NCBI GenBank assembly: GCA_903927965.1
Contig: CAIYPA010000193.1
Span: 17,594 to 81,593, forward strand
DNA: 64,000 nt
Reading direction: 5' to 3'
Source of the DNA: an uncultured Bacteroidia bacterium
GTDB lineage: Bacteria > Bacteroidota > Bacteroidia > Bacteroidales > Prolixibacteraceae
Made by a program: the position numbers and the translations under genes
Notes under the pieces: model-generated
What the model was told of the DNA's origin: nothing
Databases searched by the model: none
The model's input: the letters and a program-made list of their open reading frames with translations, nothing else
In this document: positions 11,705 to 63,819 of the stretch, piece after piece
Layout of the letters: the number at the start of each line of letters is the position of its first letter
How positions within the stretch are numbered: position 1 is the first letter of the stretch

Positions 11705-12907
11705 TCAATTGTTCTCATGTTGGCCCACTTTTTTCCATGGCGGTAAAAGCCACAAAAGAAAAGCAAGGATGAAAAATGGGATAATCACCCAGATTATTGA
11801 GAATAAGAACCCTTCAGATCCGAGAAGGTGAAGTTTATATCCAGTAAAGCCATAAAAACTTTTCGAAAACAACTGTCCACCAATTACAACATTCCATCGC
11901 ATAAAAAATATCCCGAAAAGGACCAACAAGCTACATGACAGGTAGATAATTTTCCTGATTTTCTCACTTGGCTTGTAAAGTTGTAATGTACCCAGGGAGA
12001 TCAATGGCACAACTGTTCCCAGGAATATCTGGAAAACAAAAAGTGTCAGGAACAATGGTCCATGTACAAGCAGGAACAAGATTTCGAACGATTCTTCCGC
12101 TTCATAAATCCGGTGGATCTGGTCCAAACCTTCCATGGTAAAATCGATAACCAGAATATAGAACAGGAATTTGGCAATCGAATCGAGTGCAGGCATATCT
12201 ATTTTTTGCTTCCTGAAAAAGGAAACAGCCATATAGATGAAAAGAACCAGCGCAATCCCCGAAACCATGGCTGAGAACAAGAAAATAACTGGCATCAAAA
12301 CTGTTGACCACCAAGGATTTGCCTTAATCGATCCAAAAATAAATCCTACATAACCATGGAGCATAAACGCAGAAGGGATACCCACGACAGTAATAAAATA
12401 ACCAATTTTATCGTCCCATTTTATCGTACTGGGGCTTAAATCTGTGACCCCCAAGGTCAGGATCTTGTATATCCGGCCTTTAAACCCTTTTGTCTCCTTC
12501 GACCAGATGACGATGTCCTGCCTGTAATCGAACCAGATTTCCAATAGCAAAACAACCATCAAATACCATAAATAGACAAACCCGAATATGGCCATAGCAG
12601 ATGTAGAATGGGGCGTCATCAGGATTTCGTAAAACCTTTCAGGATGCCCTAAGTGACTGACCAGTGGCATTGTAGCGACAAGGAGAAAAGCAAGGGCTGT
12701 GAGCAGTGCCAATTGGTAAGTTGGCCCAAGGACTTTAACATTAAATACCCTTTCGAGTGAAGCGAGGATAAAGGCCCCGGCAACCAAGCCTGTGATGTAT
12801 GGATACAGGACAATGAGCAGTCCCCATTGCAGATCAAGTTCGTTTGGATAGATAAATCCCTGAACCTGTGATAACATATCATAAAGATGCTGAAAATTCT
12901 GTTCCAT
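11705..12907 (-). CDS. NrfD/PsrC-type quinone-interacting membrane subunit
   Basis: Multi-TM NrfD-like protein directly downstream of a four-cluster ferredoxin subunit. Confidence 0.88.
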   Translation of the reverse strand: MEQNFQHLYDMLSQVQGFIYPNELDLQWGLLIVLYPYITGLVAGAFILASLERVFNVKVLGPTYQLALLTALAFLLVATMPLVSHLGHPERFYEILMTPHSTSAMAIFGFVYLWYLMVVLLLEIWFDYRQDIVIWSKETKGFKGRIYKILTLGVTDLSPSTIKWDDKIGYFITVVGIPSAFMLHGYVGFIFGSIKANPWWSTVLMPVIFLFSAMVSGIALVLFIYMAVSFFRKQKIDMPALDSIAKFLFYILVIDFTMEGLDQIHRIYEAEESFEILFLLVHGPLFLTLFVFQIFLGTVVPLISLGTLQLYKPSEKIRKIIYLSCSLLVLFGIFFMRWNVVIGGQLFSKSFYGFTGYKLHLLGSEGFLFSIIWVIIPFFILAFLLWLLPPWKKVGQHENN

Positions 12908-12908
12908 A

Positions 12909-13679
12909 TTATCTTACCTCCCCGCTTAATGCATTATAAAAACATTTACTACCTGTGTTGAGATGTGGTTTTAAAACCAGACAAGTGTGCTCCTTCATAA
13001 ATTTGACCAAAGGGCTCTTTGGATCGTTCAGGTTGCCCAGAATCCTTGCGTGAGTAGGACATACCTCAACACAGGCAGTGGTTTTTCCTTTTGAGATCCG
13101 GTGATAGCAAAGCGTACATTTGTCTGCTACATTTTTGGCAGGATTGATGTACCTGCAACCATAAGGGCACGCCTGAACACAATACCTGCAACCGATACAA
13201 TAGGTTTCGTCAACCATAACGACCCCGTCAGGAGTTTCGTAGGTCGCACCTACCGGACAAGCCTGAACACAAGGCGATTTGTAGCAATGGTTGCACAACT
13301 TAGGGACAAAGAATGCCTTGAAGATATCCTCCGGTGGAACACTCTGGACAAAACCGTCAATACCCCCATTGGGCGATTCTACTTTAACTGTACCATCGTT
13401 TTTTATGGTGTATTGTTCAACCCATGTCCTGAAATAGAAAGGTTGTTTAGGTATGTTATTTTCTGTTTTACAAGCATTTGCACATCTTCCACAACCAATG
13501 CATTTTTCAATGTCGATACCATAACCCCACCAGGTTTTTGAAGGATCCTTGGGCCTTTCGACTGCATAAACCACTGCATTGAACGGCGTGAACAGGCTCG
13601 TTGTCACCAACAAACTGCCCACTGTTGCTGCCTTTTTGATAAATTTTCTCCTTGATTTTCCTATTTCTTCATTTGACAT
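12909..13679 (-). CDS. Tat-exported 4Fe-4S ferredoxin subunit (DsrO/HybA/NrfC-like)
   Basis: SRRKFIKKAA Tat motif; CIGCGRCANAC, CNHCYKSPCVQACP, CIGCRYCVQACP, CTLCYHRI..CVEVCP. Confidence 0.93.
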   Translation of the reverse strand: MSNEEIGKSRRKFIKKAATVGSLLVTTSLFTPFNAVVYAVERPKDPSKTWWGYGIDIEKCIGCGRCANACKTENNIPKQPFYFRTWVEQYTIKNDGTVKVESPNGGIDGFVQSVPPEDIFKAFFVPKLCNHCYKSPCVQACPVGATYETPDGVVMVDETYCIGCRYCVQACPYGCRYINPAKNVADKCTLCYHRISKGKTTACVEVCPTHARILGNLNDPKSPLVKFMKEHTCLVLKPHLNTGSKCFYNALSGEVR

Positions 13680-41533: not shown

Positions 41534-41956
41534 ATGGAAAGTCTAGATATAAGGTGGAACCAAAGATTCCAAAACTATACCAAGTCGATGCGTCTTTTAG
41601 AAAACGCTTTGCAAATTCCTGATCCTGACATTGTTCAGAAAGCGGGCATTATCCAGTTTTTTGAAATGAGTTTTGAATTGGCATGGAACATGGTAAAAGA
41701 TTATTTGGAAGAACAAGGTTTTGTGGATGTAAAATCCCCAAGGGGAGCCTTAAAAAAAGCATTTGAAACAGGAATAATCGAAGATGGCCACGATTGGATG
41801 GACTTGTTGGTTGACAGAAATTTAACCTCACACACTTATGATGAACAAAAGGCAACCGACCTGGAGCATTTAATTCACAACAAGTACTTCCCATTATTGA
41901 ATGCGTTGCTCATTACTTTTAAGCAGAAGTTGGATGAAACGAGCCATAAAGAATAG
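41534..41956 (+). CDS. HEPN-type nucleotidyltransferase substrate-binding protein (HI0074 family)
   Basis: QRFQNYTKSMRLLENAL...GIIQFFEMSFELAWNMVKDYLEEQGF..RGALKKAFETGII..WMDLLVDRNLTSHTYDE. Confidence 0.93.
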   Translation: MESLDIRWNQRFQNYTKSMRLLENALQIPDPDIVQKAGIIQFFEMSFELAWNMVKDYLEEQGFVDVKSPRGALKKAFETGIIEDGHDWMDLLVDRNLTSHTYDEQKATDLEHLIHNKYFPLLNALLITFKQKLDETSHKE

Positions 41957-42269
41957 ATTCGGACTTTTAGATTCTGACATAGAGGCAATTATACAAACTT
42001 TGGTCAAGTATCCCAAAGTTGAACAGGCTTATATTTTTGGCAGTCGTGCAAAAGGCACTTTCAAAAACGGCAGTGATGTCGATATCGCTATTAAAGGCAC
42101 CGGTCTGGACCTCGATACACTAAACCAGATAAGCTACTGGTTGAATGAAGAAACCAACATGCCCTACAAATTTGATGTGCTGATTTATGAAAACCTTCAT
42201 GAGCCCAATTTGAAGGAACATATTGACAGGGTGGGAATTGAGTTTTATAACAAAAGGAAGGAAGATTAG
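41934..42269 (+). CDS. MNT-type minimal nucleotidyltransferase
   Basis: YIFGSRAKGTFKNGSDVDIAIKG; overlaps the HEPN gene by 23 nt. Confidence 0.93.
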   Translation: MKRAIKNRFGLLDSDIEAIIQTLVKYPKVEQAYIFGSRAKGTFKNGSDVDIAIKGTGLDLDTLNQISYWLNEETNMPYKFDVLIYENLHEPNLKEHIDRVGIEFYNKRKED

Positions 42270-42692: not shown

Positions 42693-43775
42693 CTATTCAT
42701 TTTCAATCCGATGCGTAGGGTTCGGGAAACCGGGTTGAAAGGCATCTTCCTTACTTTCGGTGACCAAAACACCATTGCCCGAAATTGCGAAGACACTGTT
42801 CCTGACCAACCTTCGGGCTTCTTCGGGAGTTGTTTCGATCCTTGCATTGACCATCATCCTCAAATTGTCAACGTTCCTGACTGGAAAATGTCTTTTCCAG
42901 TTTTCATCGGCGATGGTTGTAAAACTGATTTTCTCGTCAAACCCCTCCCCTTTTAACATAAATTTCAGATGCCCGATGTTGACCCTGTTTTGTTTGATCT
43001 CCGCAATCAAATGATCAATGAGCTTGATCGCCTGGTTCCAGGCTGATTGGTCTTCAGTATGAATGTTGATCTCTTCATCCAACCAGGCCAGGTCTGCCTC
43101 CCCTTTTCCATAGGTTTGATAGTCAATGCTTAATGAAATACAATGAGGATCAGGTAATTTACTTAAGATGTCGAGCCAGTTTTGAATATTCTGATCATCC
43201 AAAGAATTTTGAAGAATGACCTTCTTTTTTGAAAACTGTACGGCCACCAGGTTGCGAAGTTCATCGAAATCTGCTTCCGGCATCAAGTCAATCTTGTTGA
43301 TCACCAATAAATCGGCCTCTTCGATTTGCTTTGAAAAAATATATGAAATGTCATTACTAAAAGGCAATTTCTTTCCATGAAGATAATCTGAAAATAACCG
43401 GCAATCGGTAAACACCGAAAAGGTCAGTTCGTTAAACAGCTCCTTTTTGAGCAATTTCAGAGGTTTTAAAACAGTTGCTACAAGATCGGTACACGATCCC
43501 ACACTTTCGGCAAAGATGGTCTCAGGTTTGATTTCACGCTCCAGCAGTTCAATCTTGCTGCTCAGGCTATTGAAATTACAGCAAAAGCAGCCATTCGTAA
43601 CCTCAGCGGATGGTATATGATTCGCAACCATAAAACTTGAGTCAACCAGGTATTTGCCCTGGTCGTTTGTTACAACCGCAACTTTGCTCCCTTGACGCAT
43701 CAATAATTTTGAGGCATTCGTAATCGCTGTGGTCTTTCCACTTCCCAAAAAACCTCCGACAATATGTAACTTCAT
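42693..43775 (-). CDS. CobW/COG0523-like P-loop GTPase
   Basis: GGFLGSGKTTAI, TNGCFCCNF (CXCC-type motif), ESVGSCTD, INKIDLM. Confidence 0.88.
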   Translation of the reverse strand: MKLHIVGGFLGSGKTTAITNASKLLMRQGSKVAVVTNDQGKYLVDSSFMVANHIPSAEVTNGCFCCNFNSLSSKIELLEREIKPETIFAESVGSCTDLVATVLKPLKLLKKELFNELTFSVFTDCRLFSDYLHGKKLPFSNDISYIFSKQIEEADLLVINKIDLMPEADFDELRNLVAVQFSKKKVILQNSLDDQNIQNWLDILSKLPDPHCISLSIDYQTYGKGEADLAWLDEEINIHTEDQSAWNQAIKLIDHLIAEIKQNRVNIGHLKFMLKGEGFDEKISFTTIADENWKRHFPVRNVDNLRMMVNARIETTPEEARRLVRNSVFAISGNGVLVTESKEDAFQPGFPNPTHRIENE

Positions 43776-43862: not shown

Positions 43863-45662
43863 TCAATATAAAAATCTACGCAACGCTTCGATGTAATAGA
43901 TCAACGGATACAACTTCTCGTCGTACCAAAGCATTGCAAAATAGAGCCCTATCGGGTTGGACCGTAAACCATTCTGATCAAATTCATTCTGCAACCAGTT
44001 AAAACCGTCCAGGCATACCAACCTATCTTTTCCGGTCAACGCAGCAATGGAGAGAGAAGTTTCCTCAATTGTGCCATTCATTCCAATTTCACCACCCCAA
44101 CTTCCGTCCTCATTCTGCTGAGCAATCAGATAATTCGTAGCTTTGTCCAACATTTGACCAATATTGCGTTTCATGGTATCATCCAGACATTTGCACAATA
44201 AACTATCATTCAAATAGATTGAAACTTTGGCGGTACCATAGACAGGATTCTTGTTATCTGAGGTGAACTGGTTGCCAAACCACAATGGATTCCAGCTTCC
44301 ATTGTCGTTCTGTACCTTCCAAAGGAAACCGAAGGCTCTTGCAATACAGTTGGTTAGGGCTATTCGCAAATCGCCAGGAATAATTTCGGCCAAAACATCC
44401 AACGATTTGGCCAATGCGAAGAGCGCATGACCCGTCAGGTCGGCACAACTGCTGTCGAAGGGAAGCCTCCCCCATCCTTTACAAAACGTGGGAAATCCGC
44501 CATCCTTGTTCTGCAAGGTTGTCAGCCAGCAGCAACCGTTGACAATCGCTGTAACTGTATCAGTATCTCCAGGACGGTACAAATCAAGCAATGCAAGGAT
44601 CGCTCCAGACGTGTCGTCCACATCGGGAACCGAACCTGAAAAATTGGTCCATCCCCAACCTCCGGGTTCTGCGAGGTTGAAAGGATGAATGGATTTGTAT
44701 TGAAATAAATTGAAATGGGTTAAAAGATTTGAAATTTCCTGCTTAGAAAATTCGTTCATCATTTGAGGTCCCAACGCTTTCACACTTAAGGAGGTGACCC
44801 ATGTTGAGAGGTCGGTATCGATGGGCCAGCTTCCATCTTCGCGTTGCTGGTTTCGCAAAAAGGAAATCCCTTTTTCAGCAACTGCATTTTTACCTAATCC
44901 ACAGGATATAAGGCACATCGCAACAAAGGCTGTCAATGGGATGGCTTCAAGGAAACCGCCGCTCTCTGGCATGATGCTTTCCAATTTCCTCATGGCCGGT
45001 GCTATGGATTTGTTCCTTAGCCATTTCATGACCGGATTGTGGTGTTTGCGTGTCTTAAAAATAAAGATGCCGACACCAATCAAGGCAGGAATGGCATAGC
45101 TCACCACGCGCAAATTGAACAAGCTGTACCATTTGGCAGGCAATAATGTGAATTCAAATGGCAATTGTGGGATTTTGTGGCTTACTTCAGGATACAGCAC
45201 GCCACAAATAATCAGCATCGAAAGGATTGGGACAGAAAAGGTGTAATCACTTCCATAATAGCCAATTACAGCAGTTGTAATGTCCTTCTTGTTCAAGTCT
45301 ATTTTTTGTGAAAGCAAATACTTTTCAATATTGGACAATGAGTATCCAGAATCGACATTCAGGTCTTTACAATATCTGATTGCAGCATAGGACAATAAGG
45401 AAGTGCTTACATTGCTTTTGCTCTGTGGGGTGTCACCAAATCCGCCGTCAGGGTTCTGGTTTTTGATCAGCCAATCCAATCCATTGACAATCAGAAGATG
45501 ATCCGAATCATCCCCATTGATTTTGAGTGCCACAATCGCCACGGCTGTTCCAAGGGCACTCGATGAAAGCTTACCAGACCAAAAACCCTGTGGGTTAAGT
45601 TCGTCCTTTAGTAGTCCAACCAGCTTTTTGTATTGATTTTCAAGATCTATTTGTCCCATCAC
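43863..45662 (-). CDS. class II terpene cyclase / squalene-hopene cyclase-like protein
   Basis: DXDDT motif in GGWGWTNFSGSVPDVDDTSGAILAL; QW-like repeats QNPDGGFGD, QREDGSW, QNKDGGFPTF, QNDNGSWNPLW, QQNEDGSWGG. Confidence 0.88.
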   Translation of the reverse strand: MMGQIDLENQYKKLVGLLKDELNPQGFWSGKLSSSALGTAVAIVALKINGDDSDHLLIVNGLDWLIKNQNPDGGFGDTPQSKSNVSTSLLSYAAIRYCKDLNVDSGYSLSNIEKYLLSQKIDLNKKDITTAVIGYYGSDYTFSVPILSMLIICGVLYPEVSHKIPQLPFEFTLLPAKWYSLFNLRVVSYAIPALIGVGIFIFKTRKHHNPVMKWLRNKSIAPAMRKLESIMPESGGFLEAIPLTAFVAMCLISCGLGKNAVAEKGISFLRNQQREDGSWPIDTDLSTWVTSLSVKALGPQMMNEFSKQEISNLLTHFNLFQYKSIHPFNLAEPGGWGWTNFSGSVPDVDDTSGAILALLDLYRPGDTDTVTAIVNGCCWLTTLQNKDGGFPTFCKGWGRLPFDSSCADLTGHALFALAKSLDVLAEIIPGDLRIALTNCIARAFGFLWKVQNDNGSWNPLWFGNQFTSDNKNPVYGTAKVSIYLNDSLLCKCLDDTMKRNIGQMLDKATNYLIAQQNEDGSWGGEIGMNGTIEETSLSIAALTGKDRLVCLDGFNWLQNEFDQNGLRSNPIGLYFAMLWYDEKLYPLIYYIEALRRFLY

Positions 45663-45716: not shown

Positions 45717-46592
45717 CTAATTCATTGACCCAAGAGCAAGCAAACCATAGAAGGTATATTCCACATCGGTGATAAAATCGGTTGAAGTGGCCCTGAAACC
45801 TCCATTGTCGTAAAGATCATCAACAAATGAAAGGCAATCAGGTTTGATCAAACGAATATCCGCATCCAGGAAATGGAGTGCGAACAAGGCAACTCCAGTC
45901 GAAAGCAAATCCTCTTCGGGAGCCCTTAAAACAGCTGCAAACCCACCATTTCCACGATAAAATGTTAGAAGAGCTTCAACAGGTTCGGATTGTGGGTTGC
46001 CTGCCATTCCCATCATTACCGCTGTGGTGGCAACTACCGGACATGGATGCCCCTTCAAATTGAGCAATCGTTTGTACCGTTTTACCACACGTTGGATCGA
46101 AAGGTAGTCTTCAAGATAAAAGAGGGCCAATATGCCCAGAAAACCGCTGTATTCGGGTTGTTTAAGATCGGGTCGCAGCAAGTCTTCGAGTATTTCGTTC
46201 CGGAGTTTTTCCGTGATAACGTCTAGTCCGATCAATTTTGCATAGAGGATCGCGCCACAGTACCGATAAACGCCGGTCAGGTTACCCGAAGGAACGGTTG
46301 CTTCAACATACTTTTTAAGTGGTTCTTTAAAGCCCGGAACTTCCAGTGAATTGGAAATAAAATATCCGAAAAGGGAGTAATACAAATCGCACTTTCCGGC
46401 ACGGTCGGCAAATCCACCTTCGACAGTTTGCTGGCTAAGCACAAATGACCTCATTTCCAGTATCATACCCTCATCCAGCATTGCTATCGACTGTGCAAGG
46501 ACGGGTTCGAGAAGTTTGGGGCGTATTTTTTTAAGCTGCGATTTGGCAGCAAGTTTAAATATACTCTTTGAAAACTTTTCCCAAAATTTCAT
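45717..46592 (-). CDS. prenyltransferase/terpene-cyclase alpha-barrel-like protein
   Basis: Repeats resembling the prenyltransferase beta-subunit: TVEGGFADRAGKCDLYYSLFGYF, YRGNGGFAAV, LYDNGGFRATSTDFITDVEYTFYGLLAL. Confidence 0.72.
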   Translation of the reverse strand: MKFWEKFSKSIFKLAAKSQLKKIRPKLLEPVLAQSIAMLDEGMILEMRSFVLSQQTVEGGFADRAGKCDLYYSLFGYFISNSLEVPGFKEPLKKYVEATVPSGNLTGVYRYCGAILYAKLIGLDVITEKLRNEILEDLLRPDLKQPEYSGFLGILALFYLEDYLSIQRVVKRYKRLLNLKGHPCPVVATTAVMMGMAGNPQSEPVEALLTFYRGNGGFAAVLRAPEEDLLSTGVALFALHFLDADIRLIKPDCLSFVDDLYDNGGFRATSTDFITDVEYTFYGLLALGSMN

Positions 46593-48150
46593 GCAATGCC
46601 AGTTTTAAACCCAGGTTAGGAAGCGATCCGAGACATTTAATTGCCTCATTTATCGTATTGACCAACAATTCTTTGGTAATCTGAACGATCTGATGTTCCT
46701 CGATCATCCCGTAAATCGTTTCAAAAAAATCGGTTCTGAAAGCACCCATTAAAACTTCTTTTTCGAGAGGATCAAGGTGCTTTTCCAAAACAGAAAGCAA
46801 GATGGAGAACTTCCTTACAGCAATATCGCCCTTATCGCCCAAATAATCGGCGAGGTCATCCTTGATTTGATAACCTATCCCAATGTAATGGCTGAACAGG
46901 CTTAAAACCTCCAGAATTTCGGGTGAAGCCCCACCAACTGCAGCTCCGAGCAAAAAGGAAACCCTGAAAGCCGCCGAAGTCTTGTTGTCGAACAATTCCA
47001 ACATTTCATACAGCGAAAGGATTTTTTTGGAGCGGATCGAAATCAGTTCAGCCCCCTGCCCGATTGTGAGGCTACGGTGGCCTCGGGATACAATTTTGAC
47101 CCCTTCGCAAATCAGCTCATGCGACAAGGTACTTTCCGAAATCAAACGATACCCTTCGCCTATCAGGTAATCGCCAACATTAATGGCAACCGGTGCACCG
47201 TAACGTGTGTGAATGGCCTCCTTACCATAACGGAAACCGTCATTGTCTTCGATGTCATCGTGGATCAAAGAAGCTTTATGGAAACACTCAACCGATAAGG
47301 CAAGCATATTGATCACCACGGGATCAGGCTCATTTACAAACGCTTCGTAAGCCAGCACAGCAAGGAAAGGGCGTAACCTTTGTCCGCCCGAAAGGAGCGA
47401 TTCAAAGGCAATCAGCTCCGTTTTATTTTTGGGAGTCCCCAAAATACGTGTTAATTGTTCCTCGCCAAAGATTGAAGAAGATTTGTTCCTCAGGTAATTC
47501 AGGTTGAGTAACCTGATCGAAGGATCATCACGGAAGTTGTAAACCTCCTGTTTGATCCATTCCGCATCGGGCCGGGTGCTTACACATCCACAAGTAACCA
47601 GCGGAATACCGATTCCGGGAATGGCATATTTGCTGACCGAATCGAACATTTTTTGCAGCACCTCCATGCAACCGACCCCAATCACAGCATCAACCTTCCC
47701 ACTTTCGATTAGTCGGGTCGTAATGGTTGTCCCTTCCGTTACAAGAGCAACGTACCCCAGGTTCTCGGCTTCGCGTAAAAAACCAGAAATACTGCAATTG
47801 CCACATTCACTGCACAATAGTCCAAGTTCATCCTGTTGTGCCTGACATAAGGATACATTCCGAAGGCATTGCGGCAACAAAAAGATACGACGGTTGTAAG
47901 GTATCGCACCAACAACAGGACGCCAGATTGCATTTCCGCAGCATACCATGACAAAGGCGGTAAAACGCTCTTCCCACTCTTCAGCCTTGATAAGGGCATT
48001 TGCATAAACCCGCAATCCATCATAACTTACAGGGGGCATGACCGGATTCTCAAGGAAATACGACTCTACCCTTGCCCTGATCAACCTCCTCCTGGCGGTT
48101 TCTGCAGGAACATCAAGCACAAATAACGATTGAAATATCTTTGACTTCAT
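46555..48150 (-). CDS. fusion of DUF116 domain and trans-polyprenyl diphosphate synthase
   Basis: N-term IFLLPQCLRNVSLCQAQQDELGLLCSECGNCSISGFLREAENLGY (DUF116-like); C-term LLSGGQRLRPFLAVLAYEAF, SLIHDDIEDN (first Asp-rich motif), GYQIKDDLADYLGD (second). Confidence 0.88.
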   Translation of the reverse strand: MKSKIFQSLFVLDVPAETARRRLIRARVESYFLENPVMPPVSYDGLRVYANALIKAEEWEERFTAFVMVCCGNAIWRPVVGAIPYNRRIFLLPQCLRNVSLCQAQQDELGLLCSECGNCSISGFLREAENLGYVALVTEGTTITTRLIESGKVDAVIGVGCMEVLQKMFDSVSKYAIPGIGIPLVTCGCVSTRPDAEWIKQEVYNFRDDPSIRLLNLNYLRNKSSSIFGEEQLTRILGTPKNKTELIAFESLLSGGQRLRPFLAVLAYEAFVNEPDPVVINMLALSVECFHKASLIHDDIEDNDGFRYGKEAIHTRYGAPVAINVGDYLIGEGYRLISESTLSHELICEGVKIVSRGHRSLTIGQGAELISIRSKKILSLYEMLELFDNKTSAAFRVSFLLGAAVGGASPEILEVLSLFSHYIGIGYQIKDDLADYLGDKGDIAVRKFSILLSVLEKHLDPLEKEVLMGAFRTDFFETIYGMIEEHQIVQITKELLVNTINEAIKCLGSLPNLGLKLALHEILGKVFKEYI

Positions 48151-48347: not shown

Positions 48348-49526
48348 TCACCCATATGCGCCCAGGCCAAAAAAAGCTTTTTTCTTGCCCATCCGGTACA
48401 TCCAGTTTTTCTCAGGAATCACAGGACAACTTCCATGACTAGTAACAACAGTTCCATCGGTTAATTGTTGCGACAGATCTCCCCGGTTCGATGTGTTGAT
48501 GGCACTGTGATCTGCAGCAAATTTCGCAAGCCAGGCAGGGTCTTCCATCAGGATACAACCCTTTGTCTTGCGATTGATTTCCGATTTAAAATCTTTCAGA
48601 AAGACAGATTGCTCGTAAACTGATTTCAGATCACCATTTTGGATGTTATCGCACGAAAACTGGATAACTGGGCATGGCTCAATATTTCCTGATGGATTGA
48701 TGTGGTGGCTCAATCCTTCAGCTGCGGGGCAGAAAGGTATCCCATCGGCGTCCCAGTAAGAGTCGATCATGACAATCGGGTATTTGGTGCGGCCATCGAC
48801 AAGGAAATTCCGCAATCTCAAAATTTCATTGGGAGAGAGTGCCAACTCATAATGAGGGTTTTCGCCCGATGGCCGGTAGATGTAATACCAAACATAAACG
48901 ACCCCACGATCGTGAAGTTTTTGAATGAATTCATCAGATAAAGCCATTTCAATATTTGACTTACAAACACTTATGGCAACACCTGTGATTAGCTTGTTTT
49001 TTGTGGCAGTTTCGATTGCCTTCACTGTACGCTCATAAACCCTGTTGCTCCCCCGGCGGATATCGGCAACAAATTCATCGCCTTCGAGGCTGATCAGGGG
49101 AGTTACGTTGCCCACTTCGCGCAACTCGGCTGCTACACGGTCGGTCAATAAGGTGCCGTTAGTAAACAATTGAAAATAGCAATCGGGATGTGCCCTGAAT
49201 ATTGTCAATAAATCTTTATACATCAAAGGTTCACCGCCCAAAATTCCAAAGAAATAGCTGCCATATTTCTTACTTTCAACAATTATTTTATTAATAGATT
49301 GTATGTCAATACTTTCACTTTTTTCTCCTTTTGTGACCCAACAACCCTGACAGGTCAGGTTACAGTCGTCAGTAACGGAAATAAATTGAAAACAGGGGAA
49401 AACCTCCCCTTTCTTCTTTCGTTTTTCGAATTTACTGAAGCCGCTCATCCCTTTCCATCCAAGGTTAAAGGCAAACTTCCACAAACACTTCCTGTCAGAC
49501 CTTAAAAAATTTCTTAATAATGACAT
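48348..49526 (-). CDS. radical SAM protein with Cys-rich C-terminal region
   Basis: SVTDDCNLTCQGCW (CX3CX2C), GILGGEPLMYKDLL, LFTNGTLL; C-terminal FCPAAEG..NIEPCPV.QFSC..KGCILM. Confidence 0.92.
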   Translation of the reverse strand: MSLLRNFLRSDRKCLWKFAFNLGWKGMSGFSKFEKRKKKGEVFPCFQFISVTDDCNLTCQGCWVTKGEKSESIDIQSINKIIVESKKYGSYFFGILGGEPLMYKDLLTIFRAHPDCYFQLFTNGTLLTDRVAAELREVGNVTPLISLEGDEFVADIRRGSNRVYERTVKAIETATKNKLITGVAISVCKSNIEMALSDEFIQKLHDRGVVYVWYYIYRPSGENPHYELALSPNEILRLRNFLVDGRTKYPIVMIDSYWDADGIPFCPAAEGLSHHINPSGNIEPCPVIQFSCDNIQNGDLKSVYEQSVFLKDFKSEINRKTKGCILMEDPAWLAKFAADHSAINTSNRGDLSQQLTDGTVVTSHGSCPVIPEKNWMYRMGKKKAFFGLGAYG

Positions 49527-49604: not shown

Positions 49605-50384
49605 TCATTCTTTCATTCTTTCATTCTTTGCGATATCCCTTTCTTCCATTGCTTTGCGCATGGCTTCGGAACGGATGATCGACTGCCTCTTCGCTTTCCT
49701 CAATTCGAGGGCCTTGTAGATGTTGCTTCCCAAAATGGTGTCCACATCGTGTTTCTGGCGTTGCTGCTCCGCGATTTCGTCAATTGTATCTGCACCCGAA
49801 ATAGCACCGCCCTGATCATATTTGGGAAAAACAATGGCTGTTTGGGGACAAATCCTTCCGCAGGCAGGACAATTGTTCTTGCATCCTTGTGGATTGGTAA
49901 CAATCACCCTTTTATCGGTTTTCTGATAAACACCAAAAAGACAAAAATCTGCACATTGACCACAGGCCGTACAACGCGAATAGTCGATAACAGGAAACCA
50001 GGATGGCCATTCGGTATCGCATTGAAGTTCAGTAAATTCCCCTTTTGGAGAATAACCATCCAAAAAAGCATTTATCGTTTCAAAAATTGCGGGATTTTCC
50101 AGTTCCCTAAAATTCAAATGTTTAAATCTTTCAGTTGAGTAATTTACACCACAATTCTCAAGCAAAAGACGTACGGCCCTCGGATAGCAGGCGATAATCA
50201 TAAATTCACCGTCTGGACCAAAAATCTCAAATATCTCTTTTTTTCGGGTTACCGAGCAACCACACAGATCGGAGATCTGCACGAAGGGAATACCCATTTG
50301 TTTTAGGTACTGCGCAATTTCGTCCAGTCTTTCGGGACTGATCAACTTTGCACCACAATTACAAAATATTACTTTTTTCCCCAT
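49605..50384 (-). CDS. 4Fe-4S dicluster ferredoxin-type protein
   Basis: VIDYSRCTACGQCADFCLFGVYQ, CKNNCPACGRICPQTAIVFP; N-terminal FCNCGAKL. Confidence 0.9.
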   Translation of the reverse strand: MGKKVIFCNCGAKLISPERLDEIAQYLKQMGIPFVQISDLCGCSVTRKKEIFEIFGPDGEFMIIACYPRAVRLLLENCGVNYSTERFKHLNFRELENPAIFETINAFLDGYSPKGEFTELQCDTEWPSWFPVIDYSRCTACGQCADFCLFGVYQKTDKRVIVTNPQGCKNNCPACGRICPQTAIVFPKYDQGGAISGADTIDEIAEQQRQKHDVDTILGSNIYKALELRKAKRQSIIRSEAMRKAMEERDIAKNERMKE

Positions 50385-55841: not shown

Positions 55842-57971
55842 ATGACCAACGAACAACTCAAAAAACTCGAAAACGACCTCTGGGCTTCGGCCAATTCGCT
55901 GCGGGCTTATGGCGGGCTCAAAGCTGCCGACTATGCAGTGCCGGTGCTGGGATTGATTTTCCTCCGTTTTGCCGACAACAAATACACCCTTTACGAACCC
56001 GATATCCTCAAAGAATTCGAAACCGACAAAGGGACAAGGCTCGAAAGGCCCATTGAATCAATCGCTTTGGAAAAGTGCGGGTTTTACCTGCCTGGTTATG
56101 CGCGGTACGATTTCCTGCTCGGCCTGCCCAACGAGGAAAGCATAGCAAAGGCTTTGCGCAAGGCCATGGAAGGGATCGAAGAGTACCAGGACGAAAAGTT
56201 CAAAAACGTATTGCCCAAAGAGGCCTATTTCGACATCGAGAAAAAGAAACCCGACATCCTCCCGCAACTGCTCAAAACCTTTTCCGACATTCCCAAAGAC
56301 GCAAGTGGCGATATTTTCGGAAAGATCTACGAATATTTCCTTGGCGAGTTTGCGATGAGCGAAGGGCAAAAAGGGGGCGAGTTCTTCACGCCAACCTCAA
56401 TCGTGCGGTTTATCGTGGAGGTGATCGAACCGTTTGCCGGAAAAATTTATGACCCTGCCTGTGGTTCAGGTGGAATGTTCGTACAGAGCGCCAAGTTTAT
56501 CAAGGAGGCCAACCACGACCTGAGCGATATTTATGTCTATGGTCAGGAATACATGGGCGAGACTGCCCGTTTGGCCAAGATGAACCTGATGGTAAACAAT
56601 ATACGTGGCGAGATTACCGAGACAAACTCTTACGAGAACGACCCTTACACAAGCCTCGGCAAGTTCGATTTTGTGATGGCCAATCCACCGTTCAACGTGA
56701 AATCGGTGAAGGAGAGCACGGTAAAAAATGACGAGCGTTTTTACAAATATGGCCTGCCAAAGAACAAGGGCAAAAACACCGATGACAGCATTACCGATGC
56801 CAACTACCTGTGGGTCTCGCTGTTTGCCACCTCGCTCAACGAAAAAGGGAGGGCCGGTTTTGTGATGCCCAATTCGGCCTCCGATGCTGGGAACTCTGAA
56901 TACGAAATCCGCAAGAAATTGGTTGACAGCAATATAGTCGATTGCATGGTATCGATGCCATCGAACATGTTTTTTACCGTGACCCTTCCGGCTACGCTTT
57001 GGTTCCTCGACAAGCAAAAAGCTAATACCGACCGGAAGGACAAGATCCTTTTCCTCGATGCCCGCAACACCTATACCCAGGTTGACCGTGCCCACCGCGA
57101 ATGGCGAGAGGAACAGGTCCAGAACCTTGCCGCCATTGTGCGCCTTTACCGTGGCGAAACCGACCGCTACCTGCAGTTGGTGGCGCATTATGCCGGAAAT
57201 GCCACCGACAGTATCATGGAACTTCCTGCTGTTTATGAGGCATTTAAGTTAAAATTGCTAACCTCGCTCGAAAAGCTTGGGCAATATGCAAAAGAAAGCG
57301 GGACTAAACGAAAACCTGACGAACAGAAGGTACTCGACAAAAGCGGGTTGATGCAAAAACTCGGTTCATTGGTAGTTCCGGAATTGGAATTTCCAGTATT
57401 GCATTGGACGACCATCTTAAAGGATTTTGACGATATTACGGAAGCCACCAACGAAGACCTGCTAAGGTTCGAAACCAAACTGGCCGATGATATTGAATCG
57501 CTCAAAGAGCAGGACACCAACCTGAAAATTGCAAAGGACGCGATTTGCGAAATCTGGGCGGAGGCCGATAAAATCTTAAAGCTCAAGGCCGACAAAACAT
57601 GGGCTGAGCTGGAACTCAACAACCTCTCGAAAACCCTTGACGAATTGTACCAGAACTGGAAAACAGCCATTGACAACGTAACCTATTGGCATACAAATAT
57701 AACTTGGTTGCAGAGCCGTTTCCCAGATGCCAAATACGCCGATGTTGTGGGTTTATGCAAAGTGGCTGATAAACAGGAATATGCAGGGGAACAGGATTAT
57801 TCGCTGAATGCAGGGAGATATGTTGGGGTGGAGATTGATGAGGATATATCAAGTTCTGATGATATCAAATTGAAAATAAAATCCTTGCATCTTCGTCTTG
57901 AAGAATTGGACAAAAAATCTTCCATTTTGGAAAAATTGATAAGAGACAATATTAATTCACTTTTGTCATGA
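55842..57971 (+). CDS. hsdM: type I restriction-modification DNA methyltransferase subunit M
   Basis: LRAYGGLKAADYAVPVLGLIFLRFAD, GEFFTPTSIVRFIVEVIEPF, YDPACGSGGMFVQS, FVMANPPFNVKS. Confidence 0.97.
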   Translation: MTNEQLKKLENDLWASANSLRAYGGLKAADYAVPVLGLIFLRFADNKYTLYEPDILKEFETDKGTRLERPIESIALEKCGFYLPGYARYDFLLGLPNEESIAKALRKAMEGIEEYQDEKFKNVLPKEAYFDIEKKKPDILPQLLKTFSDIPKDASGDIFGKIYEYFLGEFAMSEGQKGGEFFTPTSIVRFIVEVIEPFAGKIYDPACGSGGMFVQSAKFIKEANHDLSDIYVYGQEYMGETARLAKMNLMVNNIRGEITETNSYENDPYTSLGKFDFVMANPPFNVKSVKESTVKNDERFYKYGLPKNKGKNTDDSITDANYLWVSLFATSLNEKGRAGFVMPNSASDAGNSEYEIRKKLVDSNIVDCMVSMPSNMFFTVTLPATLWFLDKQKANTDRKDKILFLDARNTYTQVDRAHREWREEQVQNLAAIVRLYRGETDRYLQLVAHYAGNATDSIMELPAVYEAFKLKLLTSLEKLGQYAKESGTKRKPDEQKVLDKSGLMQKLGSLVVPELEFPVLHWTTILKDFDDITEATNEDLLRFETKLADDIESLKEQDTNLKIAKDAICEIWAEADKILKLKADKTWAELELNNLSKTLDELYQNWKTAIDNVTYWHTNITWLQSRFPDAKYADVVGLCKVADKQEYAGEQDYSLNAGRYVGVEIDEDISSSDDIKLKIKSLHLRLEELDKKSSILEKLIRDNINSLLS

Positions 57972-59134
57972 TGGAAGAAGTACGATTAGATGATTTAATT
58001 ATACTACAAAGAGGTTTCGATATTTCGGAGAAGGAACAAATTACTGGTATAGTGCCGGTTATATCTTCTGGTGGTACTTTGAGTTTCCATAATGAATTTA
58101 AAGTAAAAGGACCAGGAGTTGTTATTGGAAGAAAAGGTACTTTAGGGAAAGTTTACTATACTGCGGAGGATTATTGGCCGCATAGTACCTCTTTATGGGT
58201 CAAAAACTTTAAAGGTAATGACCCAAAATTTATTTATTATCTATTACAAGTACTTCATTTTGAAAAATTTGATGCCGGAGCAGCAAACCCGACATTAAAT
58301 AGAAATCATATTCATCCTTTAAAACTTAAAGTTGTAAAAAAGGAATTCCGAAGCAAAATCGTCTCCATTCTTTCGGCTTACGATGAGCTGATCCAAAACA
58401 ACAAGCAGCGTATCAGGTTATTGGAAGAGATGGCCGAAGAAATTTACAAGGAGTGGTTTGTAAGGATGCGGTTCCCGGGGCACGAAACGGCAAAGTTTGT
58501 GGACGGTTTGCCGGAAGGATGGGAAAAGAAAAAGGTTGAAGATGTTTTCAAGACTTCCTCAGGTGGAACTCCATCAAGGGAGAAAGAATCAGATTATTAT
58601 GGAGGGGATATCGACTGGATTAAAACCGGTGAGTTAAAAGATACCTTTGTATTTGACTCTGATGAAAAAATCACAGATGTTGGGTTGAAAAATTCATCTG
58701 CAAAGATGTTTCCTGCGAACACACTTCTAATGGCAATGTACGGCGTAAATATTGGTCAATTAGGTATTTCCGTAAAGCCAGCTTCAGCAAATCAAGCTGT
58801 TTGTGTGTTTAATCCTCTTAAACCAGAAAAGTATTCATTATATTATTCTTTCTTCTTTTTTAAATCAATTCGTTTTCATCTTTTCAATATTAGTATGGGT
58901 GCTGCACAACAGAATTTAAGTCAGGATTTAATTAAAAAGATAAATTATTTAAGTCCATGTTCTTATATTATCATCAAATACGATTTGATGGTTAAACCGT
59001 TCTTTGAAGAAATACAGATTCTTCAACAGAAAAACCAACTTCTCCAGCAGACTCGTGATTTATTGTTGCCACGGTTGATCAGCGGCAAGTTGAGCGTGGA
59101 GCATTTGGTAGAGGAGGCAATCCCGAAGGGATGA
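57968..59134 (+). CDS. hsdS: type I restriction-modification specificity subunit S
   Basis: Two TRD halves with conserved ILSAYDELIQNNKQRIRLLEEMAEEIYKEWFVRMRFPGHE and C-terminal QKNQLLQQTRDLLLPRLISGKL; 4-nt overlap with hsdM. Confidence 0.95.
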   Translation: MMEEVRLDDLIILQRGFDISEKEQITGIVPVISSGGTLSFHNEFKVKGPGVVIGRKGTLGKVYYTAEDYWPHSTSLWVKNFKGNDPKFIYYLLQVLHFEKFDAGAANPTLNRNHIHPLKLKVVKKEFRSKIVSILSAYDELIQNNKQRIRLLEEMAEEIYKEWFVRMRFPGHETAKFVDGLPEGWEKKKVEDVFKTSSGGTPSREKESDYYGGDIDWIKTGELKDTFVFDSDEKITDVGLKNSSAKMFPANTLLMAMYGVNIGQLGISVKPASANQAVCVFNPLKPEKYSLYYSFFFFKSIRFHLFNISMGAAQQNLSQDLIKKINYLSPCSYIIIKYDLMVKPFFEEIQILQQKNQLLQQTRDLLLPRLISGKLSVEHLVEEAIPKG

Positions 59135-59260
59135 AATGATTATAGCGATGATATGATTATGGCGTGGAATTCAATTTATTACAACGAAAAACCCCGAAGT
59201 GGGTGACATGTTTGCGATAATTTAATTTGTGTGTATTCTACCCAAAAACGCTGAAACCAT

Positions 59261-59397
59261 AATAAGGGAATAAGGTTGGCCTGTTGTTGTATTTGCTTGG
59301 TTACTAAGGTTTTTTCAGAAAAATAAGGTTTTAAAAAATGTTATTTCAATGCCAAAAAATCTTATTTTAAACACTTTAACCTTAGTAACTCAAAATT
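59261..59397. repeat. MITE-like repeat family B, copy 3 (right terminus missing)
   Basis: AATAAGGGAATAAGGTTGG...GGTTACTAAGGTT...AAATAAGGTTTT and inverted arm AAAATCTTATTTT...AACCTTAGTAACTCAAAATTG. Confidence 0.8.
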
Positions 59398-59484
59398 GTT
59401 TCTAATCTATTGTATGTGTGATAATTGGTTTTACCTTTACTGAAAATTTGACATTCTCTCATAATAAACTTTACAATATCCATT

Positions 59485-60504
59485 ATGAGCAATATAGATA
59501 AAAATGCAGCTCCATTGGTATTGGAATTGAAGCAACTTATTGAAAAAAGTCGCCAGCAAATTGCTATTGCTATTAATTCGGAAATTACAATTTTATACTG
59601 GAATATTGGTAAACATATTTTTCAGTTCACAAACGAAAGGGCTGAATATGGAAAAGAGATTTTGCCGACACTGTCGGCAAAATTAGTCATTGAGTTTGGC
59701 AAAGGCTTTAGTACAAGGAACTTAGCCAATATGTTGAAAATTTATGAATTTTATCCCGACGAAAACATTTTGCAGACACTGTCTGCAAAATTGAGCTGGA
59801 GCCATTTTGTCGAATTATTAAGTGTCAAAGATCCCTTGCATCGTGAGTTCTATGGCACGCTTTGCAGCTTGGAAAAATGGGGAGTCAGACAATTGCGGAA
59901 AAATATCGATTCGATGTTGTACTTTCGCTCTGCTATCGCTTCCCATCCTGATGAAATCATAAAAAATGAACTTCAACAGCTTGGTAATAATGTGAATATA
60001 AATCCTGATCTAGTTTTTAAAAACACTTATGTTTTAGATTTTCTGAATCTTCCCGGGCGATATTCAGAAAGTGAATTGGAACAGGCACTAATTGATAATT
60101 TACAAGCCTTTATACTTGAATTGGGTGTTGGATTTGCATTTGTTGAACGACAAAAACGAATTTCAATCGACGCTATCGATTATCATTTGGACCTTCTCTT
60201 TTACCACCGAAAACTCAAACGTTTGGTAGCCATCGATTTGAAACTTGGAAAATTCAAGCCCAAGCACAAAGCCCAGATGGAACTCTACCTGCGTTGGCTC
60301 CAAAAACACGAAATGCAGCCTGGCGAAGATGTCCCTATTGGCTTGTTACTTTGCAGCGAAGGAAATACCGAACACATCGAACTGCTAATGCTTGACCAAC
60401 AGGAAATTAAGGTTGCACAATACCTCACAGAATTGCCATCGAAACAGTGGTTTGCCGATAAACTGCGCAGGGCAATGGAAATTGCAAAAATGAACACTAA
60501 ATAA
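59485..60504 (+). CDS. DUF1016/YhcG-like PD-(D/E)XK nuclease domain protein
   Basis: ARQQIAIAINSEITILYWNIGKHI-type N-term, LSWSHFVELLSVKDPLHREFY, FVERQKRISIDAIDYHLDLLFYHRKLKRLVAIDLKLGKFKPKHKAQMELYLRWL. Confidence 0.95.
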   Translation: MSNIDKNAAPLVLELKQLIEKSRQQIAIAINSEITILYWNIGKHIFQFTNERAEYGKEILPTLSAKLVIEFGKGFSTRNLANMLKIYEFYPDENILQTLSAKLSWSHFVELLSVKDPLHREFYGTLCSLEKWGVRQLRKNIDSMLYFRSAIASHPDEIIKNELQQLGNNVNINPDLVFKNTYVLDFLNLPGRYSESELEQALIDNLQAFILELGVGFAFVERQKRISIDAIDYHLDLLFYHRKLKRLVAIDLKLGKFKPKHKAQMELYLRWLQKHEMQPGEDVPIGLLLCSEGNTEHIELLMLDQQEIKVAQYLTELPSKQWFADKLRRAMEIAKMNTK

Positions 60505-63500
60505 TTGATTATGGCCTACCTGAACGAATCGCACATCGAACTTGCCGACATTGCTTACTTTACCGAAAAATTGGGATATTCCCATATCAACGCCTGGGAA
60601 AAACAGATCCTCGGACGGAAAAGCCTTAAAGAGGTGGTCCTTACCGACCGGCTAAAACACCAATTGCAGCAACTCAACAACCACCTTCCAGAACATTGCA
60701 TCGAAACTGCCATTGGCGAACTGACAAAAAGCCGGGCAACGATGTTGCCGGTTTTGGCCAACAAGGAAGTTTATGGGTTGATCAAAAACGGGGTGCAGGT
60801 ATCGTACAAGAATATTCACGGCAGGGAAGAGAACGATTATGTGAGGATCATCGATTTCAGTCCGGCCAACGACAACGATTTTTTGGTCGTGACGCAGTTG
60901 AGCATCGAATACCAGCTTACCCAAAATATTACGAGGCGTCCAGATATGCTATTGTATATCAATGGATTGCCATTGGTGATGATCGAATTGAAGAATGCCA
61001 CCGAAAAGGTAAAAACAGGGTACGACAAAAACCTCAAAGATTACCAGCGCGATATCCCCCAATTGTTCTGGTACAACCTGTTCGTCTGCATCTCGAACGG
61101 CATCCAAACGCGTGTTGGCAGTTTCAATGCGCCGTGGGACCATTTTTTCTCGTGGTTGAAACTGAAGGACACCTCTATCACCCACGACCAGCTTACAAAA
61201 GACGAGATCGAAAAGGAGAGCGAACGGACAGGAGAACACCTTAGCCTAAAGATTTTTGGCGAAGGTCTTTGTCAAAAAGACAAACTGATCGATTACTTCG
61301 AAAACTTTGTGCTGTACCACCGCAACAAGGTCAAGATCATTGCCAAGAACCATCAGTTCCTGGGCGTGAACAATTCCATTGTGGCACTTCAGAACAAGGA
61401 GGGCAATAAAGGGAAACTCGGCGTTTTCTGGCACACACAGGGATCGGGGAAATCGTATTCGATGATCTTTTTCTCCAAAAAGGTACACCGCAAGCTGACC
61501 GGCAACTGGTCGTTTCTGATCATCACCGACCGGAAGGATCTCGATAGCCAGATTTACAGGAACTTCCTGGAGACCGAAACCATTGTCGAAACCAAGGACC
61601 AGAAAGAGAACTATTTCAGGCCAGCCGATAAAGAGAAATTAAAGGAATATCTGCAGTCGAACAGGTCTTTCGTGTTCTCATTGATCTTTAAATTCGGGAT
61701 CGAAACCGGCAAGACCTTCCAGCAGCTCACCGACCGGAACGACTGGATTGTGATCGTGGATGAAGCGCACCGCACGCAATACAAAAGCCTGGCCGAAAAT
61801 ATGCGGATCGGCCTGCCAAATGCCCAGTACATCGCTTTTACAGGCACGCCCCTGTTGCGCAGCGAACTCACCAAAGATTGGTTTGGCCCGTATGTTTCGG
61901 AATACGACTTTGCCCAAAGCATCGAAGATGGCGCAACGGTCCCGATCTATTACAAGAAAAGCGTTCCTAGGGTGGAGCAGGTCAACCCCGATCTGGTGGG
62001 TGAAGCAGCTGAAATTTTGGAAAACGAAAACCTTACAGAAGAACAGAAGGAGAAGCTGAACAAGGAATATTCGACGCTACTTCAGGTTGTGAGGCGCGAC
62101 GACAGGCTCGAAGAGATCGCGAAACACATTGTCAGCCATTTCCCCTACCGGTTGGATGTCCTCGATGAAGAGAAGTACCGGAGGCCCATGAAGGCAATGG
62201 TCATCAGCATCGACAAGTTTACAGCGGTCAGGATGTTCGACAAAGTGCAATACCACCTCAAGGAAGAGATCAAGGAACTCCGGAAAAAGATTAAAGTTGA
62301 AAAGAATCCTGAAATCAAGGCACGGCACGAAAGGGCGATCCTGTTTATGCAGGAGACCCGTATGGCGGTGGTCATCAGTCAGGAAGGTGGCGACAAGGAC
62401 GAAGAAAAAGTCTTTGCCGATGCCGGGCTAAACATCAGGCCGCACAGGGAGTTGATCGACCGGCCTGATGAAGATGGGCGCAACATTGAAGACTATTTCA
62501 AGGACCCAAACAATACCTACAGGATCGTTTTTGTAACGGCCATGTGGATGACCGGTTTTGATGCGCCCTCTGTATCAACATTATACCTCGATAAGCCACT
62601 TCAGAACCACACCTTGATGCAAACCATTGCCAGGGCGAACAGGGTGATCGAAGGGAAGAAAAACGGGTTGGTTGTCGATTATTTTGGCGTTTTCAGGAAC
62701 CTTAAAATTGCGTTGGCCGCTTACGCGGAAGGGACAAAAGGGAAAGGGAAGAAAGCAGAGGAAGGCGGCGATGGTGGTGACGAGTATCCTGCAAAGGAAT
62801 TCGAAGAGCTGTTTTTATTGCTCGACGAGGTCATTCTTGAGGCAAAGGGCTACTTCCAAAATTTGGGCGCCGATATGGACAAAATCCTGAACCTGGGCGA
62901 AAAAGGGTTCAAGGACATTGAACTGTTCCAGGAATATGCCAACCTGATCCTTGCCAAAGACGAATACAAGAAGCAGTTGGGGCTGTATGTGAATACCATT
63001 GTGTCACTTTATGATTCGGCCACACCCGAGGTTTATGACCGTCCGGGCTATAAAAGGAACCGCGATGTTTTTCAATACCTTCGCGATGTTGTTGACCGCA
63101 ATGTTGACCGTGACGATGCTGTAGATAGGGCAAGAAAGAAAATCGACGAATTGCTCGATACCAGCATTTTAGGCAAAGGTGACCTGCACGAAGAGCAAAA
63201 AAACAGGTATTCGATTGAAACGTGGAAGCAAATCGACCTGAGCAAACTCGATTTTGCCGTTCTAAGAAAAGAGTTCCCAAACAAGGAACACAAGAACATT
63301 CAGTTTGCCGACCTCAGGGAATTGCTGGAAATCAAGCTCAATCAAATGCTTGCGCAGAACAAGACGAGGGGCAGTTTTCTTGTAAATTTTCAAAAGATTA
63401 TCGACGATTACAATTCGGGGAGTATATCCATCGATGAAGCTTATGAAGAGTTGTTAAGAAGGGCCGAGGCAATGGACGAAGAAGCGCGGAGAGCTGCAAA

Positions 63501-63819
63501 AAACGAAATGACGGAGCCTGAGCAGGAGCTTTTCGACCTCCTCAAAAAAGACAAACTGACCAAAGAGGAGGAGAAAAGTGTAAGGCTTGCCGCCCATGCC
63601 TTGTTGGAGAGACTTTTTGACGCGAAAAACAAGATCCTGATCCAGGAGTGGTGGAAAGAGAAATCCACACAGGAAAAAGTAAAAAGGGAGATCCAACTCG
63701 TTCTTGATAATTTATTGCCAAAAGATAGTTACGATATGAATCTCTTTTCACAGAAGGTGGATGTCACCTTTCAGCATTTTTTCGAGTTGGCCCAGGTAGG
63801 AAAAGGGGTGGCGGCGTAG
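60505..63819 (+). CDS. hsdR: type I restriction enzyme R subunit (HsdR)
   Basis: MIELKNATEKVKTGYDKNLKDYQRDIPQLF nuclease-domain region, GVFWHTQGSGKSYSM (Walker A), IVDEAHRTQYKSLAENMR (DEAH), AFTGTPLL. Confidence 0.97.
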   Translation: MIMAYLNESHIELADIAYFTEKLGYSHINAWEKQILGRKSLKEVVLTDRLKHQLQQLNNHLPEHCIETAIGELTKSRATMLPVLANKEVYGLIKNGVQVSYKNIHGREENDYVRIIDFSPANDNDFLVVTQLSIEYQLTQNITRRPDMLLYINGLPLVMIELKNATEKVKTGYDKNLKDYQRDIPQLFWYNLFVCISNGIQTRVGSFNAPWDHFFSWLKLKDTSITHDQLTKDEIEKESERTGEHLSLKIFGEGLCQKDKLIDYFENFVLYHRNKVKIIAKNHQFLGVNNSIVALQNKEGNKGKLGVFWHTQGSGKSYSMIFFSKKVHRKLTGNWSFLIITDRKDLDSQIYRNFLETETIVETKDQKENYFRPADKEKLKEYLQSNRSFVFSLIFKFGIETGKTFQQLTDRNDWIVIVDEAHRTQYKSLAENMRIGLPNAQYIAFTGTPLLRSELTKDWFGPYVSEYDFAQSIEDGATVPIYYKKSVPRVEQVNPDLVGEAAEILENENLTEEQKEKLNKEYSTLLQVVRRDDRLEEIAKHIVSHFPYRLDVLDEEKYRRPMKAMVISIDKFTAVRMFDKVQYHLKEEIKELRKKIKVEKNPEIKARHERAILFMQETRMAVVISQEGGDKDEEKVFADAGLNIRPHRELIDRPDEDGRNIEDYFKDPNNTYRIVFVTAMWMTGFDAPSVSTLYLDKPLQNHTLMQTIARANRVIEGKKNGLVVDYFGVFRNLKIALAAYAEGTKGKGKKAEEGGDGGDEYPAKEFEELFLLLDEVILEAKGYFQNLGADMDKILNLGEKGFKDIELFQEYANLILAKDEYKKQLGLYVNTIVSLYDSATPEVYDRPGYKRNRDVFQYLRDVVDRNVDRDDAVDRARKKIDELLDTSILGKGDLHEEQKNRYSIETWKQIDLSKLDFAVLRKEFPNKEHKNIQFADLRELLEIKLNQMLAQNKTRGSFLVNFQKIIDDYNSGSISIDEAYEELLRRAEAMDEEARRAAKNEMTEPEQELFDLLKKDKLTKEEEKSVRLAAHALLERLFDAKNKILIQEWWKEKSTQEKVKREIQLVLDNLLPKDSYDMNLFSQKVDVTFQHFFELAQVGKGVAA

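Follow-up and report, generated by a model that had tools for sequence, protein, structure and literature searches.

The fusion protein and its two domains

Why would DUF116, a cysteine-rich domain without known function, be joined covalently to an enzyme of prenyl chain synthesis, and in which pathway would such a protein act? The question is raised by a gene (46555..48150, minus strand) in the window, that is, the whole stretch of 64,000 nucleotides from an uncultured Bacteroidia bacterium that was analysed here. Its open reading frame is unbroken from the ATG at 48150 to the stop at 46555 and encodes 531 amino acids. The Pfam search that had been proposed together with the original prediction was run, and both expected domains were found in this single frame, each far above its cutoff: DUF116 (PF01976; residues 56–201, 47548..47985, minus strand; 3.2e-30, 105.1 bits, gathering threshold 25) and polyprenyl_synt (PF00348; residues 250–469, 46744..47403, minus strand; 8.9e-38, 130 bits, cutoff 27). 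The assignment of the first ~210 residues to DUF116 was right with regard to the identity of the domain, but too generous in its extent, as the homology spans only residues ~56–201; residues 1 to ~55 form a helical N-terminal extension outside this homology.

When the protein was compared to the PDB with phmmer, prenyl diphosphate synthases matched the C-terminal part only (best match 1wy0, 2.6e-26). An AlphaFold2 model based on 64 aligned sequences was confident (pLDDT 90.5, pTM 0.88), and a Foldseek search with its C-terminal part likewise retrieved prenyl synthase structures including 1wy0 (E 1.4e-12, TM to target 0.81).

The architecture itself has been known since 2015 from one sentence by Makarova et al. 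(PMC5898192), according to which arCOG02078 (DUF116) is fused to a polyprenyl synthetase in some bacteria, e.g. in Psta_0175 of Pirellula staleyi, which thus shares the architecture of the window's protein. For arCOG02078, a flavodoxin-like fold and participation in electron transfer were predicted in the same source; the surrounding gene cluster is absent from that passage. In a search of the literature on DUF116, COG1852, Psta_0175 or the cluster, this was the only relevant paper; PMC8692599, considered as a candidate for cluster literature, proved unrelated. The conserved gene cluster around the fusion has apparently not been described so far.

Distribution and origin of the fusion

DUF116 was detected in 30 of 295 sampled genomes of the window's order, and in 12 of these (the window's genome and 11 others) it lies in one frame with the synthase; one more case is cut by a contig end. 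A scan of genome contigs yielded 80 further loci with 35–74% identity, which belong to the Verrucomicrobiota (31), Planctomycetota (22), Bacteroidota (18), Acidobacteriota (4), Lentisphaerota (1) and Kiritimatiellota (1); three loci, among these one of a Riflebacteria MAG, could not be placed. Judged by frame length alone, DUF116 frames of fusion size account for ~47 of 81 in the sample of the phylum of a Planctomycetota record (L094) and for ~21 of 28 in that of a Verrucomicrobiota record (L078). Given that the one-frame arrangement is seen in 11 more genomes from the order and has representatives in at least five further phyla, an assembly merge or a frameshift joining two genes, which the original prediction had itself raised, is ruled out as the source of the fusion. 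Separate DUF116 and synthase genes lying side by side were not noticed in the loci that were read in a non-systematic look.

In a tree of 50 fused and 31 standalone DUF116 domains, one branch parts the two groups (SH-aLRT 96). Nothing in this quick tree, which contains several long branches, contradicts a single origin of the fused domains.

The synthase half

The C-terminal half resembles the trans-isoprenyl diphosphate synthases (PF00348), of which the geranylgeranyl diphosphate synthase of Pyrococcus horikoshii (1wy0) is the nearest solved representative, in its fold, both Asp-rich motifs, the GxRxRP motif and the Lys-Thr pair. Among 78 aligned fusions, D298, D299 and D302 of the first Asp-rich motif (DDIED, residues 298–302) and D431 and D432 of the second (DDLAD, 431–435) are invariant, while position 435 is occupied by D in 70 and by E in 8 sequences. 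In the GG(K)RxRP motif (GGQRLRP, 255–261), R260 occurs in all and R258 in 77 of the 78; position 257 is K in 58 and Q in 14, the window's protein being among the latter. K390 and T391 are invariant as well.

Beside the N-terminal DUF116, one substitution sets the fusions apart from these synthases. Following the first Asp-rich motif, R307-Y308 (RYG, 307–309) is found in 76 of 78 fusions where RR is usual, and RR is kept in 1wy0 and in another synthase of the window's genome (L057). Because the second Arg of this pair helps to bind the diphosphate of IPP in farnesyl diphosphate synthases, its replacement suggests that the acceptor site is altered and that the acceptor is perhaps a compound other than ordinary IPP. 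The predicted membership of the C-terminal half in the fold of the trans-isoprenyl diphosphate synthases stands, whereas ordinary elongation with IPP is not assured. The fusion also diverges from all NCBIfam synthase equivalogs (best 114 bits versus a cutoff of 450).

The DUF116 half

DUF116 is indeed Cys-rich, as had been claimed, with seven conserved cysteines in the window's domain (C95, C102, C113, C116, C119, C161 and C189). The corresponding columns are conserved to 100% in 89 fused and to 97–100% in 31 standalone domains, and with all seven cysteines fully kept the fused DUF116 is not a decayed domain. From the CxxCxxC pattern and the other conserved cysteines we infer that DUF116 binds an Fe-S cluster or another metal centre.

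Standalone DUF116 proteins (PF01976, COG1852, arCOG02078) possess the same domain and the same seven cysteines as the fusion; they differ in lacking the synthase and in their location. Within the window's own phylum, 17 loci with an unfused DUF116 gene were compared and had no neighbourhood in common. In seven loci of the phylum of the Planctomycetota record (L162–L166, L170, L171), a standalone DUF116 (~147 aa) adjoins fmt, ~5 kb into each locus, in the order def-fmt-DUF116-rsmB (def and rsmB in six of seven each; gene identities checked by Pfam in L170). This context is linked to translation and unrelated to prenyl synthesis. Prenyl metabolism is therefore one context of DUF116 among several. 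The view that the link to a prenyl synthase is a direct clue to the function of the domain holds for one subfamily at most, namely the fused domains that group apart in the tree; it does not extend to the standalone forms, which carry the same cysteines in other contexts. As these cysteines are common to fused and standalone forms, DUF116 probably has one general Fe-S or redox function, which was recruited by the prenyl pathway.

A DUF116 sequence profile gave no match in the PDB. Foldseek returned nothing below 0.001 for the modelled domain (best 0.008), and cobalamin-domain and receiver/flavodoxin-like folds appeared at TM ~0.3, so that the model shows no more than a loose Rossmann/flavodoxin-like resemblance. 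Cobalamin binding was considered and not adopted at these values.

The conserved gene cluster

The genes around the fusion, which the original prediction had left unmentioned, are a larger clue than the fusion alone. The operon in the window comprises six genes, all on the minus strand. It starts with a 4Fe-4S ferredoxin-type protein of 259 aa (Pfam Fer4; 49605..50384), a conserved neighbour, followed by a radical SAM/SPASM protein of 392 aa (48348..49526; Radical_SAM 2.6e-17, weak SPASM match) with a CxxxCxxC motif (C55/C59/C62) and C266, C285 and C324. After the fusion gene, whose end is overlapped by 38 bp by the start of the next gene, follow an alpha/alpha-toroid protein of 291 aa (45717..46592), which is similar to the beta subunit of protein prenyltransferases and devoid of conserved Zn ligands, and a squalene-hopene-cyclase-like (SHC-like) protein of 599 aa (43863..45662; SQHop_cyclase_C 3e-33, SQHop_cyclase_N 4.7e-19). 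The last gene encodes a CobW/COG0523-type GTPase of 360 aa (42693..43775; Pfam cobW 1.9e-29) with a CxCC motif.

Elsewhere in the window, three other loci were observed. An NTase substrate-binding protein (PF08780) and a Polbeta nucleotidyltransferase (PF18765) are arranged like a HEPN/MNT toxin-antitoxin pair (41534–42269, plus strand). By eye, a type I restriction-modification-like locus with HsdM, HsdS, a DUF1016-like protein and HsdR was recognized at 55842–63819 (plus strand), and an NrfD-like membrane protein adjoining a Tat-type 4Fe-4S protein at 11705–13679 (minus strand).

Counting the window, the arrangement of the first five operon genes is identical in 10 loci of the order, and it is seen on every contig of sufficient length; the CobW gene is found in the cluster of many genomes, not of all. 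Beside CobW, profile searches across the phyla added two families: GcvH-like proteins (PF01597), whose conserved Lys lies within ExxKA, much as at a lipoyl site, and class V aminotransferases that resemble cysteine desulfurases and conserve a Lys and a Cys. Gene content was counted in 40 records with enough flank. Fer4, radical SAM, toroid and SHC-like genes were present in 6 of 6 such Bacteroidota loci. The 13 Planctomycetota loci contained Fer4 (13), toroid (11), SHC-like (11), radical SAM (8), CobW (8) and GcvH (8) genes. In the fetched region of the 15 Verrucomicrobiota loci, the fusion gene often lacked the SHC-like gene (present in 3) or the toroid gene (present in 6), so the pathway is dispersed or variable there. 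A cluster of ~5–9 genes is thus common to at least five bacterial phyla, and it is present in an isolate genome, that of Draconibacterium aestuarii.

Some loci show additional features. In several Planctomycetota loci of Phycisphaerae and Sedimentisphaerales (L070, L091, L109, L114, L122, L124), a radical SAM protein of another family (~500–630 aa) replaces the SPASM gene beside the fusion. In loci of Bacteroidota and a Riflebacteria MAG (L046, 13787–19901; L049; L125; L128), the SHC-like gene is followed by PQQ-type beta-propellers and a polyferredoxin and in some by a NapH-like 4Fe-4S membrane protein. In L068 (1992–5949) and L108 (2015–5904), the operon is immediately preceded by genes for FAD/4Fe-4S proteins and for proteins like the 51-kDa subunit of NADH dehydrogenase, which could provide electrons of low potential.

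Cyclase-like, toroid and radical SAM proteins

The SHC-like protein matches squalene-hopene cyclase and other solved SQHop-type cyclases. Like the squalene-hopene cyclases and the class II cyclases of SQHop type from bacteria (1gsz; 7xq4 and 8zg0 groups), it possesses both cyclase domains, N and C, and carries the DxDD(T) motif. This motif, DVDDT in the window's protein, corresponds to the class II cyclase acid motif, and D347, D349, D350 and T351 are conserved in at least 98% of 47 sequences. The protein differs from the known cyclases in conserved motifs of its own (VVSYAxPAL and GGxLEAxPLT), its score against the NCBIfam hopene_cyclase model stays far below the cutoff (87.9 versus 431.1 bits), and its gene clusters with a prenyl synthase and a radical SAM gene, not with a squalene synthase gene, which is missing among the conserved neighbours of the cluster.

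The squalene/phytoene synthase family (PF00494) is missing from 5 of 13 operon genomes of the order, among which G506, G495 and G600 are 98–99% complete, and from 3 of 15 further operon genomes, including that of the isolate D. aestuarii (G702). Operon genomes without PF00494 argue that squalene is not a general requirement for the cyclase, and its substrate is probably a compound other than squalene, although a gene of this family is present in most other cluster-bearing genomes. The prenyl product of the fusion would be the simplest substrate.

For the toroid protein, the nearest relative in a profile search was the beta subunit of geranylgeranyltransferase II (E ~3e-9), and the alpha/alpha-toroid repeats are shared with the solved type II enzyme (1dce, chain B). 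The Zn site of the latter, with its Asp, Cys and His ligands, is absent: no Cys or His occurs in columns conserved to at least 90% in 48 sequences, and D69, Y71, Y72, D228, D276 and E278 are conserved instead. The toroid protein is therefore not a protein prenyltransferase of the Zn type. The closest solved relative of the radical SAM protein is SkfB (2.1e-21), a likeness that perhaps reflects only features common to SPASM proteins.

Proposed pathway and alternative explanations

Taken together, these genes point to a dedicated pathway, common to several phyla, that would lead to a putative cyclised terpenoid or meroterpenoid and in which the fusion would be the prenyl-transfer enzyme; we give this reading about an even chance. 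In the order of steps that we infer, the active-looking trans-prenyl synthase predicted in the C-terminal half would use an allylic diphosphate and, given the change from R to Y, possibly an acceptor other than ordinary IPP. The DUF116 half, predicted to bind one or more Fe-S clusters via its seven invariant cysteines, would be served by the operon's 4Fe-4S protein. Most likely this half would reduce the prenyl product or contribute to such a reduction, or else pass electrons to the radical SAM enzyme. The SHC-like protein would then cyclise the product by means of its DxDD acid. The toroid protein would presumably be a second component that binds prenyl groups, and tailoring would fall to the radical SAM enzyme. 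For the part of DUF116 in this scheme our confidence is lower than for the class of pathway. The argument concerning the acceptor site derives from the roles of the RR pair in farnesyl diphosphate synthases, and the low counts of SHC-like and toroid genes in the Verrucomicrobiota speak against a terpenoid pathway of uniform composition.

A different explanation starts from the electron-transfer role predicted for arCOG02078 (PMC5898192). DUF116 could be a plain electron-transfer module, the synthase could be of the ordinary polyprenyl diphosphate type and provide a quinone or a carrier lipid with its chain, and their fusion would serve energy metabolism rather than a special terpenoid. The beta-propellers, polyferredoxin and NapH-like proteins after the operon (L046, L049, L125, L128) and the NADH dehydrogenase-like and FAD/4Fe-4S proteins before it (L068, L108) would be in line with this. 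However, the window's genome contains two other synthase genes outside the operon, quinone tails do not require two proteins with cyclase folds, and the RY change is kept in nearly all fusions, so that we consider this explanation unlikely.

Slightly less probable still is a controlling function, in which DUF116 would regulate the synthase, either by sensing redox state or metals or as a structural domain dependent on Fe-S, and would take no part in prenyl-chain chemistry. The fusion as such could be explained by a structural or regulatory role of this kind, and as the seven cysteines are also found in standalone forms in unrelated contexts, the activity of the domain need not concern prenyl groups. 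Yet at least five phyla have retained the fusion next to Fe-S and radical SAM genes, a pattern in keeping with a demand for electrons in catalysis. The synthesis of a hopanoid-like triterpenoid from squalene is the most improbable alternative: the 599-aa protein does match squalene-hopene cyclases with DxDDT intact, but reaches 88 bits against the hopene-cyclase cutoff of 431, several near-complete operon genomes are devoid of PF00494, and the conserved neighbours include no squalene synthase.

With regard to the terpenoid pathway, a more specific version can be formulated, which we regard as speculative and rather unlikely in its details. The DUF116-fused prenyltransferase would join a prenyl chain to a non-IPP acceptor; after a class II cyclisation and tailoring by the radical SAM enzyme, the product would belong to a new class of sulphur-containing or carrier-bound terpenoids. 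The cysteine-desulfurase-like and lipoyl-carrier-like neighbours would fit an insertion of sulphur.

The conserved operon provides a concrete and testable context for DUF116, from which a terpenoid is predicted. If such a product were found, it would offer the first biochemical assay for this domain of so far unknown function, and a route to terpenoids independent of squalene synthase would become known.
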